DNA of 64,000 bases, from assembly GCA_014872815.1 (NCBI GenBank), contig WKFK01000015.1, forward strand, positions 682,001-746,000, read 5' to 3'. How positions within the stretch are numbered: position 1 is the stretch's first letter; each line of letters opens with the position of its first letter. The translations under genes were made by a program, and so were the position numbers. This stretch comes from Paracoccaceae bacterium (GTDB taxonomy: Bacteria; Pseudomonadota; Alphaproteobacteria; Rhodobacterales; Rhodobacteraceae). Below are positions 1 through 2,841 of the stretch, in pieces. The notes below the pieces were generated by a model. That model had not been told where the DNA came from. It was given only the letters and a program-made list of their open reading frames with translations, and did not search any database.

Positions 1-2841
1 CAACTCTTTGGACACTGGGCGCGGTTGCGTCATCACCGGGTGTATGGAGCCGTCTTTTTTCGGGAAGGCCACCTCTTCGCCGCGCCAAAGTTTGCGCAGG
101 TCGTCCATCTGCTCAAACATCACATCGCGGTTGCGCGGCGGAGTGTTTTCGGGCCGCAGAACAAAATCATCCGGCTGCCAGCCGCTGGCAATCGCAAGGC
201 CAGCGCGCCCGTTGGTGAGGTTGTCGATCACTGCCCATTCTTCCGCGATGCGCGCGGTGTGGTGCAGCGGCGAGACGCAAGACCCCGCGCGCACGCCGAT
301 TTGTTTGGTCACAGCCGCCACCGCCGCGCCGGTCACCGATGGGTTGGGGTAGGGGCCGCCAAAGGCGTGGAAATGCCGCTCCGGCGTCCAGACCGCGCAG
401 AACCCATGGGCATCGGCAAACTTCGCGCCTTCCAGCAGCAGCTCGTATTTCTTGGAACCCTGACCATCGTCATTGCCCCAGTAATAGATTGAGAAATCCA
501 TACCGCCCGCAGTGGCTGGCAGGCGTCCACCAGAAATCTGCGTGGTGGTTTCATCACCCGACAGCACCAGCTTGAAGCCACGCGAGAGCGTCCAGAACAG
601 TTCCAGCACCGAAATGTCAAAAGACAGCGACGTGACCGCCATCCAGCTATCGCCCGCCTTATACGGCACCCGCGCGTCCATCCCGGCAAAGAAGTTGGCC
701 ACGTTTCCATGCTCGACCATCACGCCTTTGGGCGTGCCGGTCGAGCCGGAGGTGTAGATCAGATAGGCGAGGTCATCCCCGGCAGCGATGGCCTCCGGGT
801 TGTCCGCGGACGCCGCTGACAACCGCGCGTCCGTGTCCATTTCCAGTACCTGTGCGCTGTGCGCGGGCAACTCGCGGGTCAGTGCGGCTTGGGTTACAAT
901 CACATTTGCGCCGCTGTCACTGATGTAATGTGCCAAACGGTCGGCGGGGTAGGCCGGGTCCATCGGCACATAGGCCCCTCCGGATTTCAGGATCGCCAGC
1001 GCGGCCACCACCAGATCGGGCGACCGGCGCAAACACAGCCCCACCAGCGCGCCACGGGTCACCCCCATGTCGCGTAACACATGCGCGGCGCGGTTGGCGC
1101 GGGCGTTCAGGTCCGCGTAACTCAGCACCTCATGCTCAAACACCAGCGCCGGGGCGTCCGGTGTTTTGGCCGCCTGCGCCTCAAACTGCGCCGCCATGGT
1201 GAAGTCTGGATCAAACGGCGCCTCGGTGGCGTTCCAGCCGGTCAACACCTCGGCGCGTTCCGCCTTTGGCAACACATCCAAATCCGCCACATTGGCCGCG
1301 GTGCCAATCTGCGCGCAGATCAGCTCCAACCGCGCCACCAAACGCGCGGCATGTTCTGGGGTTACCCGCGCCGCATCAAAATGCAGAACAGCACCGGCTA
1401 CGCCAATCGCCACGGTCATCGCCGCGCCCTCGATGGGACCCGCCACACCGCCAGTTGTCACGGCTAAGTCCGGCATGGTTGGCGCAGTCAGCGCCGGATC
1501 GCGGGCGATCAGGTCGCTGGCAAAGCTGCCCTTGGCATCGGCCTGCGCCACACGCTCGGCAATCGCCGTGTTGGCCTCGGCCACGGTGTCATGAAGCAGT
1601 TCCGCGCCCACACGCAGCGGCACCCATGGGGAAATCAGCCCGGCGGCCTGCGGATGATCCGCGCCGCGATAAGCCACATCACACACCTCCGGAAGGCCTG
1701 ACCGCAGCGCCCAAATGGCGACCGCGGTCAGGATACTCTTGGAGGGAGTCTCGGAAATCTCAAGCGGCAGTTGCCGCATATCCGCCAGCTCCCCACCGCC
1801 ACGGATCAGCGGCAGGGTGGCTGGCACAAACTCGGCCAAACGCGCGCGCCAGAAGGGCTCGGCTTTGGCAATGGGCATCATAGTGCCGGACAGCGCGTCG
1901 CTGGCGGCTTTGTCTAACAGCGGCAAGCGCTCTCCTGCGCGGATCACATGGTTGGCGGCCTCTGCCTGACCGGCCCCATCTGTCAAACCGCTCAGCACCA
2001 CGGCCCCACGTCCACAGGCGACGGTCACGCTGGCCTCATCCACAGCCAGCACCGCGCCCGGTTCCCCCCGGCCCGCGCTTTCGGCGACTTCGGCAGATGT
2101 CACCAGCAGCACCCGTCCAGCGGCGACCATTTTGGGGGCAAACAGCGGGTTGAAGTAGTCACCATGATCCAGCGCGCGCACCAGTGCCACAACGTCTTGT
2201 GCATCGCGGCGGAAATCAATCCGCCCGGCCGCTTCTGGACGTTTGGCGCGGCCAAAATAGCTGCGTTGGCTCATGTCCTGCGCCCGCGCATTGGCGAGGT
2301 CTTCGCCCAAGGCGCGCATCACGTCCGGGAAGCTTTCAATGGCGGCGGCGTAACACTTTGTGTTGAGCGTCAGGGCGGTGTCGGCCAGCCCAATGTCAAA
2401 CATGCGCTGAGCAACAATCTCGCCCGTGTCCGCGCCCACTTCCATCTTATGCCAGGTGATGCCATGGCGCGGCTCCTGCGCCATGCGCGCCCAAACCGGC
2501 GCATTCAAGCCCGCATAGCGCGGCAGTGGTCCGTCATGGAAGTTCACCGCGCCTTTAACGGGCAGCTTCAGCACGGTGTCTGACAACATGTCCAAATTGG
2601 CGACACTCAACAGCCAATCAAACCGTTCCCCAAGCAGCTCAGCCGCCATGTCACTGTCCGACGAAATCACTCGCAGCCCGGCCTCGCTTGCCCAGTCGCG
2701 GATCTCCGGCGCGCGCGTCACCACAGCGGTCAGCGTGTTGCCGGTGTCGAGCCACAACGTGGCGCATTGGATCAGCAGGCTTTCGTTGCCAATCATCACG
2801 GCGGACATCGGCGCGGCGTTGGTGAAACTATCAAGGCTCAT
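1..2841 (-). CDS. Non-ribosomal peptide synthetase with formyltransferase and embedded luciferase-like monooxygenase domain (3' part off the window)
   Basis: The frame is open from the ATG at 2841 to the left edge (947 codons seen). Residues about 15-300 are a methionyl-tRNA-formyltransferase-like domain that keeps the catalytic Asn100, His102 (NFHDGPLPRYAG) and Asp138 (GADTGEIV). Residues about 320-590 resemble only part of a condensation domain; I see no HHxxxDG. An adenylation domain follows, with YTSGSTGTPKG near 696-706 and FDIS at 741-744. At residue 781 (MDFSIYYWG) a luciferase-like monooxygenase domain begins, inserted after the A4 motif, as in the natural-product LLM family (TIGR04020). 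The rest of the A domain and the carrier domain must lie beyond the edge. A strong AAGGAGG sits 7 bases before the start, and the ATG overlaps the upstream glycosyltransferase stop by 4 bases. The visible specificity residues begin D-I-L, which is too few to assign a substrate. Predicted role: activate, formylate and oxidise an amino acid handed to the neighbouring PKS. Confidence 0.9.
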   Translation of the reverse strand, partial: MSLDSFTNAAPMSAVMIGNESLLIQCATLWLDTGNTLTAVVTRAPEIRDWASEAGLRVISSDSDMAAELLGERFDWLLSVANLDMLSDTVLKLPVKGAVNFHDGPLPRYAGLNAPVWARMAQEPRHGITWHKMEVGADTGEIVAQRMFDIGLADTALTLNTKCYAAAIESFPDVMRALGEDLANARAQDMSQRSYFGRAKRPEAAGRIDFRRDAQDVVALVRALDHGDYFNPLFAPKMVAAGRVLLVTSAEVAESAGRGEPGAVLAVDEASVTVACGRGAVVLSGLTDGAGQAEAANHVIRAGERLPLLDKAASDALSGTMMPIAKAEPFWRARLAEFVPATLPLIRGGGELADMRQLPLEISETPSKSILTAVAIWALRSGLPEVCDVAYRGADHPQAAGLISPWVPLRVGAELLHDTVAEANTAIAERVAQADAKGSFASDLIARDPALTAPTMPDLAVTTGGVAGPIEGAAMTVAIGVAGAVLHFDAARVTPEHAARLVARLELICAQIGTAANVADLDVLPKAERAEVLTGWNATEAPFDPDFTMAAQFEAQAAKTPDAPALVFEHEVLSYADLNARANRAAHVLRDMGVTRGALVGLCLRRSPDLVVAALAILKSGGAYVPMDPAYPADRLAHYISDSGANVIVTQAALTRELPAHSAQVLEMDTDARLSAASADNPEAIAAGDDLAYLIYTSGSTGTPKGVMVEHGNVANFFAGMDARVPYKAGDSWMAVTSLSFDISVLELFWTLSRGFKLVLSGDETTTQISGGRLPATAGGMDFSIYYWGNDDGQGSKKYELLLEGAKFADAHGFCAVWTPERHFHAFGGPYPNPSVTGAAVAAVTKQIGVRAGSCVSPLHHTARIAEEWAVIDNLTNGRAGLAIASGWQPDDFVLRPENTPPRNRDVMFEQMDDLRKLWRGEEVAFPKKDGSIHPVMTQPRPVSKEL

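Follow-up and report, generated by a model that had tools for sequence, protein, structure and literature searches.

A two-protein NRPS-PKS assembly line with a formyltransferase and an embedded monooxygenase, proposed to modify bacterial surface polysaccharides

The left end of a 64,000-nucleotide stretch from a Paracoccaceae bacterium (GenBank assembly GCA_014872815.1, contig WKFK01000015.1, positions 682,001 to 746,000; the whole stretch is called the window below) holds most of a gene for a nonribosomal peptide synthetase (NRPS). In this protein a formyltransferase (FT), the C-terminal lobe of a condensation (C) domain and an adenylation (A) domain interrupted by a luciferase-like monooxygenase (LLM) precede a peptidyl carrier protein (PCP) domain. 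In the same operon lies a type I polyketide synthase (PKS), with a gene for a GT2 glycosyltransferase between the two. On balance, the two proteins probably form an assembly line whose product is a small, modified acyl group destined for a polysaccharide or glycoconjugate of the cell surface. The fuller version of this reading, in which the line is dedicated to surface-polysaccharide decoration and supplies an N-formylated, alpha-oxidised glycine plus one ketide, installed by the dedicated glycosyltransferase, is finely balanced. Glycine activation and the layout of the assembly line are well supported; the site of oxidation and the attachment to sugar we infer.

The synthetase and its interrupted adenylation domain

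The NRPS gene occupies window positions 1..2841 on the reverse strand, which thus holds the N-terminal 947 of 1,553 residues. From the ATG at 2841 the frame runs stop-free into the adjoining DNA as far as G000:C3:680180, and the complete gene (G000:C3:680180-684841, the same as L002:15180-19841) encodes an intact protein of 1,553 amino acids. A gene truncated or broken at the window edge is thereby ruled out, and the continuity presumed by an earlier, sequence-only reading of the window is borne out. Pfam and NCBIfam scans of the complete protein place the FT at residues ~12-297 (window 1951..2808; PF00551 Formyl_trans_N 61-174, PF02911 Formyl_trans_C 205-297), the first half of the A domain, to and beyond the A4 motif, at 553-766 (window 544..1185; PF00501) and the LLM at 783-1133 (783-947 in window 1..495, the rest at L002:16443-17000), all on the reverse strand. 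The AMP-binding match falls into two stretches, the best at 553-766 and the second from 1148, followed by AMP-binding_C at 1333-1405 and a PP-binding carrier domain at 1443-1506; everything from the remaining part of the LLM through the second A-domain half to the carrier domain lies to the left of the window. No thioesterase was found in these scans of the whole NRPS.

The same arrangement recurs widely. A pattern search of named genomes gave at least 590 matches; at least 574 of them code for a protein related to the FT-C-lobe part. The best 80 of these relatives form one set of loci and 53 other loci a second, the two sets overlapping in genomes. A frame longer than 1,400 amino acids was obtained from 74 of the 80 loci, and neither the C lobe nor the LLM is missing from any of these 74 proteins. 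Because it is common to the relatives in this way, the FT-C-lobe-A(LLM) architecture is not a chance product. These 74 proteins and the window's own make up a 75-sequence set; a further set of 63 aligned sequences, picked by similarity, includes the window's own protein, two rows with in-frame stops (L036, L047), one misframed (L051), one without FT (L066) and seven plasmid loci. The FT catalytic residues N100, H102 and D138, already recognised in the sequence-only reading, are all present and are retained in 61 (N), 62 (H) and 62 (D) of the 63 sequences and together in 75/75. The protein therefore has what defines an FT-initiated NRPS, an N-terminal FT with N, H and D ahead of an A-PCP module. 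The carrier serine is present in 73/75 sequences and gapped in the other two.

The inserted domain matches TIGR04020 with 474.4 bits against a cut-off of 244.45, over model positions 1-340 of 341, which by the curated cut-off makes it a member of this MupA/Atu3671 family of LLMs dependent on flavin mononucleotide (FMN). Pfam Bac_luciferase matches at 792-1108, and this is the one TIGR04020 match in the genome at E <= 0.001. The insertion lies between A4 (741-749, F-D742-I-S-V-L-E-L-F) and A5: the A domain resumes at 1148, with YGPTE (A5) near 1215. An A domain interrupted after A4 by an LLM, assigned on first inspection from residue 781 onward, is thus confirmed. Among solved structures, PuwE (PDB 6ket, E 7.3e-101), from a cyanobacterial lipopeptide pathway, is nearest in sequence, and it shares many residues with the LLM over the whole domain. 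An oxime-forming Ox domain of the lobatamide type was also considered as a lead; no chain so named is among the 12 PDB matches listed for the LLM. The LLM occurs in 75/75 sequences, and mean column identity is 71% in the A-LLM part vs 49% in the FT-C-lobe part.

What does the A domain activate? Its ten specificity positions read DILQMGMIWK, one residue away from the DILQLGMIWK carried by all four glycine A domains with a monooxygenase that are described in PMC12283262. The pattern DILQ[MLFYC]GM[IV]WK is found in 62 of the 63 aligned sequences, own included, the exception being the misframed L051, and DILQ[MLFY]GM[IV]WK in 75/75; the exact DILQLGMIWK occurs in 9/63 and 14/75. The code is D[IM][LV]Q.GM[IV]WK in every LLM-bearing A domain read from Nostoc, Streptomyces, Deinococcus, Hydrogenophaga and the genomes G168 and G819. 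Two FT-C-lobe-A proteins without LLM, from Rhizobium and Bradyrhizobium (L195, L197), have the code DVWH[VL]SLIWK, which we take to be serine-like. Thus, the LLM insert seems to go together with glycine specificity, and activation of glycine by the NRPS is a well supported prediction; the single carrier-bound amino acid of the earlier reading is kept and narrowed to this substrate.

The condensation-like stretch (residues ~323-539; window 1225..1875, reverse strand), described earlier as having no HHxxxDG, does lack that motif, which characterises PF00668, and has no Pfam condensation match at E <= 0.001. It can now be defined more narrowly. When a profile of the homologs' residues 298-548 was compared by hhalign with six full C domains, it aligned with columns 192-457 (probability 95.9, E 5e-9), while HHxxxDG (HHxxxDA in one) begins at residue 135-137 of the six reference pieces, before the matched columns. 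Control comparisons of the lobe profile with the ketosynthase (KS), acyltransferase (AT), dehydratase (DH) and thioesterase (TE) of the partner PKS gave 0.2-0.9. By profile, then, the stretch is a lone C-terminal lobe whose N-terminal, HHxxxDG-bearing half is absent; a degenerate full C domain was rejected, since the profile shows the N lobe to be missing. The lobe is present in 75/75 sequences. It belongs to the FT type of initiation module and not to the oxidation, because the Rhizobium and Bradyrhizobium FT proteins without LLM carry the same lobe (9e-41; in a repeat, 2.8e-38 and 1.9e-37). At the other end of the protein, the C-terminal tail is basic (RRAMRARR-like, L002:15183-15260; 47/63 by pattern) and is perhaps a docking element for the PKS.

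The operon and its polysaccharide setting

The PKS and GT2 genes stand upstream of the NRPS gene and a phosphopantetheinyl transferase gene downstream, and three ATGA overlap junctions were read in this order. The GT2 gene (window 2838..3848, reverse strand; PF13641, PF00535) overlaps its neighbours by four bases, ATGA, on both sides. The PKS (window 3845..10279, reverse strand; 2,144 amino acids) has by Pfam the order KS-AT-KR-DH-ACP-TE, in which KR is a ketoreductase and ACP an acyl carrier protein. Its catalytic residues are invariant in 50/50 sequences, own included: C-H-H in the KS, S/H/R in the AT, S in the ACP and S-D-H in the TE, and likewise S-Y-N and the Asp of the LDD-type motif in the KR and H and D in the DH. 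By these residues it is a cis-AT type I PKS with a thioesterase, the DH deviating in spacing and in one secondary position. The AT substrate motif is IAAHS. The PKS partner, the operon with GT2 and phosphopantetheinyl transferase and the polysaccharide setting all lie outside the part of the window covered by the sequence-only reading.

Relatives of the PKS and GT2 are present in 80/80 loci, and a glycosyltransferase lies between PKS and NRPS in 79. The order PKS-GT2-NRPS holds in 79/80 loci and in 45/53 of the others; the odd one of the 80, L160, falls outside the rule owing to the late start of its best NRPS piece. The two large proteins also occur together in whole genomes. With thresholds of 1e-150 for the NRPS and 1e-250 for the PKS, the NRPS was found in 70 of 198 sampled genomes of the family, own included, and the PKS in 72, all 70 being within the 72; of the two PKS-only genomes, G109 is matched over residues 8-1192 only and G121 at 43%. 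In the genus the NRPS is in 19/25 genomes. Outside the family it is rare at the same thresholds (1 of 6 matches among 337 genomes of the class; 4 of 11 matches among 299 of the phylum, one of the four, G819, without FT). The closest relatives among the matches listed are from Shimia species, and several relatives are located on plasmids.

The triad is regularly found among polysaccharide genes. Next to the PKS lie a gene for a Wzx-type oligosaccharide flippase (window 10379..11761, reverse strand; NF007773 MOP flippase family and NF047674 TuaB, both below cut-offs) and a glycosyltransferase-like gene (window 11743..12567, reverse strand), which was named by eye from its open reading frame and recurs beside the triad in relatives. 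Polysaccharide or glycosyltransferase genes were present in 20/20 NRPS loci, taken from 46 stretches, vs 2/20 control stretches of similar size placed by hand on the same contigs; a strict count (flippase, ligase, sugar transferase, chain-length and WecG/TagA genes, operon matches dropped) gave 19/20 vs 1/20. A chance neighbourhood is ruled out by these controls. Relatives of this cluster's own polysaccharide and glycosyltransferase genes occur in 74/80 loci and 48/53 others, numbers that do not change when operon matches are dropped, and in 67/80 and 46/53 when plain glycosyltransferases are left out; as the queries all came from this one cluster, distant relatives are undercounted. (Five of the six loci of the 80 that lack such relatives are stretches shorter than 15 kb.) Annotated plasmid records show a rhamnose operon (L004) and, among others, exosortase, sugar transferase, flippase and ligase genes. 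The association persists across Rhodobacterales, Hyphomicrobiales and Hydrogenophaga as well as on a Deinococcus plasmid, despite differing polysaccharide genes.

A proposed pathway and competing explanations

How would such a line work? The A domain would load glycine onto the carrier domain, as its code well supports, and the FT, with its intact catalytic residues, would formylate the glycine nitrogen. Because the N-terminal lobe of the C domain is lacking, there would be no upstream peptide to accept, and the NRPS is read as an initiation module in which the C-terminal lobe may serve as a structural platform between FT and A. The FMN-type LLM would then oxidise the carrier-bound glycine, by analogy most likely as an alpha-hydroxylase. 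In myxothiazol and melithiazol a monooxygenase domain between A4 and A5 acts on the glycine alpha carbon, with cleavage following, and in solanimycin one between A8 and A9 acts on the same carbon, solanimycin B keeping the hydroxyglycine (PMC10204066). Alpha-hydroxylation has also been proposed for a TIGR04020-type LLM, in a source that lists other LLM chemistries as well, including Baeyer-Villiger oxidation (PMC8739492). It is because the embedded glycine monooxygenases so far described act on the alpha carbon that this site is favoured here. Embedded LLM chemistry, called poorly understood in the sequence-only reading, is thus less obscure, since embedded monooxygenases have been described as, or suggested to be, glycine alpha-hydroxylases in myxothiazol, melithiazol and solanimycin (PMC10204066, PMC12283262). 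Within what a sequence can show, N-formylation together with flavin-dependent oxidation of a single carrier-bound amino acid is upheld.

With its formyl cap the product would be a carbinolamide and not an amino alcohol prone to collapse, and would so be kept from breaking down to glyoxylate. The unit would next move to the KS of the partner PKS for one malonyl-type extension, ketoreduction and probable dehydration; the domains for these steps are intact, and the flow between the proteins, the single use of the module and the extender unit are those suggested by the layout. The terminal TE would release or transfer an N-formyl-amino acyl product of about four carbons. To judge from the neighbourhood, the coupled GT2 and the sugar enzymes of the cluster would put the acyl unit into a surface glycan, to be exported by the cluster's flippase and ligase machinery.

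It could also be that the line makes a free secreted metabolite (an antibiotic, signal or metallophore) and only shares an island or plasmid with polysaccharide genes. This is rather unlikely, even though the usual layout behind a released metabolite is an NRPS-PKS with a TE, the plasmid location of several relatives is one in which unrelated modules can travel together, a TolC-family gene adjoins the PKS in L006 and a type I secretion pair lies ~3 kb from it in L008, and Phaeobacter PKS and NRPS genes are treated as secondary metabolism in PMC4062626. What speaks against a free product is the contrast with the control stretches, the persistence of the association from Rhodobacterales to the Deinococcus plasmid, the glycosyltransferase relative in every one of the 80 loci, in 79 between PKS and NRPS, and the fact that no exporter or siderophore receptor recurs across seven annotated stretches.

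Other alternatives concern the chemistry. The LLM might oxidise the glycine nitrogen instead, in which case FT and LLM would yield an N-formyl-N-hydroxyglycine hydroxamate and an iron-binding polymer or metabolite. An FT and a flavin monooxygenase sharing a module would be enough to make a formyl hydroxamate; the known hydroxamate monooxygenases, however, belong to a separate, NADPH-dependent class. Natural-product LLMs are credited with several chemistries (PMC8739492), yet the embedded glycine monooxygenases of myxothiazol, melithiazol and solanimycin act on the alpha carbon (PMC10204066), and the hydroxamate is quite improbable. A little less probable again is a cleavage of the formylated glycine that releases formamide and leaves a glyoxylyl thioester for extension by the PKS. 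This would follow the myxothiazol and melithiazol precedent, where the alpha-hydroxyglycyl unit gives an amide and a two-carbon glyoxyl thioester, but it would make the FT pointless, although each of N, H and D is conserved in 61-62 of 63 sequences, and solanimycin B retains its hydroxyglycine (PMC10204066). Finally, LLM activity is a prediction from the sequence, and the domain might be a catalytically idle relic, the module yielding N-formylglycine only; with the LLM in every sequence of the 75, the A-LLM part conserved above the FT-C-lobe part and many PuwE residues common over the whole domain, this is very improbable.

Some observations weigh against the proposal of a glycan-modifying line. 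Gene neighbourhood is no proof of attachment to a sugar, and the assembly-line product is one predicted from genes alone. Dehydration is uncertain, because the DH motif is one residue longer between H and G and has a Gly, in 49/50 sequences, at a secondary site usually held by Gln or His. No flavin reductase was noticed among the neighbours, where no search was aimed at one. The first 360 residues of the A-LLM-PCP protein of the Deinococcus plasmid gave no match to the C-lobe profile. Of the 53 other loci, eight lack the PKS-GT2-NRPS order: the PKS is divergent in L006 and L008 (both Hyphomicrobiales), L106 and L107 and lies behind the NRPS in L104, L105 and L009, and L108 has neither the order nor the FT. 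Five (L104, L105, L106, L108 and L009) lack relatives of this cluster's polysaccharide genes. Among these five, L106 has Poly_export and Wzz and L105 a sugar aminotransferase/epimerase pair in the flanks by Pfam, the single flanking protein scanned in L104 had no Pfam match, and L009 has annotated glycosyltransferases 16-20 kb off but adjoins nitrous oxide reductase genes.

Related systems and neighbouring genes

Each part of the line is already known: FT initiation, a glycine monooxygenase between A4 and A5, and a one-module PKS. For the combination of FT-C-lobe-A(LLM)-PCP with a dedicated PKS and GT2 in polysaccharide loci, no description was found in open-licence papers, a body of text that leaves subscription journals mostly outside. 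The closest relation is to the MtaG/MelG type of glycine A domain from myxothiazol and melithiazol, which shares the insertion site, the glycine code family and the flavin monooxygenase (PMC10204066, PMC12283262). Likened by these descriptions, MtaG and MelG extend and end their lines and cleave hydroxyglycine, whereas the present module starts a line and has an FT, a C lobe only and a PKS partner. Upstream condensation delivery and amide release, as in the MtaG type, are not seen here: there is a C lobe only, an FT in front and no TE in the NRPS.

Known TIGR04020 members act in ordinary natural-product pathways, and the clade of the present LLM, unlike them, sits in polysaccharide loci. In a FastTree tree of 27 LLM domains, 17, own among them, form one clade with support 1.0, made up of Rhodobacterales and Hyphomicrobiales-type sequences with Hydrogenophaga nested inside. 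Outside it fall the LLMs of Deinococcus, Nostoc and Streptomyces and the alphaproteobacterial variants L009, L062 and L104. The C domain is complete in the Nostoc and Streptomyces proteins, and there is no polysaccharide gene among the annotated genes in their 4-kb flanks. The Deinococcus plasmid carries a separate FT gene, the A-LLM-PCP protein and a PKS, with capsule and polysaccharide genes adjoining; in place of the TE its PKS (L196:13108-19770) has a terminal condensation domain with HHLAADALS, which would fit transfer to an amine or hydroxyl, as a single case. Linear gramicidin LgrA likewise has an N-terminal FT fused to its initiation A domain, but is not known to have a C lobe between the two or a monooxygenase, and uses valine. 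The Rhizobium and Bradyrhizobium FT-C-lobe-A proteins mentioned above (L195, L197), which are encoded on plasmids, share the FT N-H-D and the C lobe, and differ in having no LLM, another code and a further condensation domain behind.

Assembly lines are usually taken to produce free metabolites, and genome miners list loci of this kind as orphan NRPS/PKS clusters. Tritonibacter T1PKS and NRPS-like clusters, which might or might not be of this kind, have been reported as unlike any known cluster (PMC11225332). In Phaeobacter inhibens a PKS, Inhi_1972, and an NRPS, Inhi_1974, are listed with one number between them (PMC4062626); judged by locus numbering alone, this could be the same PKS-GT2-NRPS triad. 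If the product is fixed to polysaccharide, many marine species would carry a reactive, oxidised N-formyl acyl modification of their glycans that has apparently not yet been looked for. Such a modification would be a common yet so far unnoticed kind of glycan chemistry, chiefly of marine biofilm bacteria but shared by Hyphomicrobiales and Hydrogenophaga and, as a variant, by Deinococcus, with a bearing on biofilms and attachment to algae. The relatives also provide a large natural series linking glycine specificity with an inserted monooxygenase, which is useful for module engineering.

Three further features were seen in or near these clusters. A protein of ~1,010 amino acids (window 12662-15694, reverse strand), apparently secreted as judged by eye, belongs to no known family in the libraries scanned, with a weak RTX match only, and recurs beside the NRPS-PKS genes in many relatives. 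In Paracoccus liaowanqingii a second NRPS (L007:1-3635) lies within the same polysaccharide cluster. Window positions 17952-20350 hold what appear by eye to be zinc-type ABC transporter genes, whose binding protein has a long loop rich in His, Asp and Glu.

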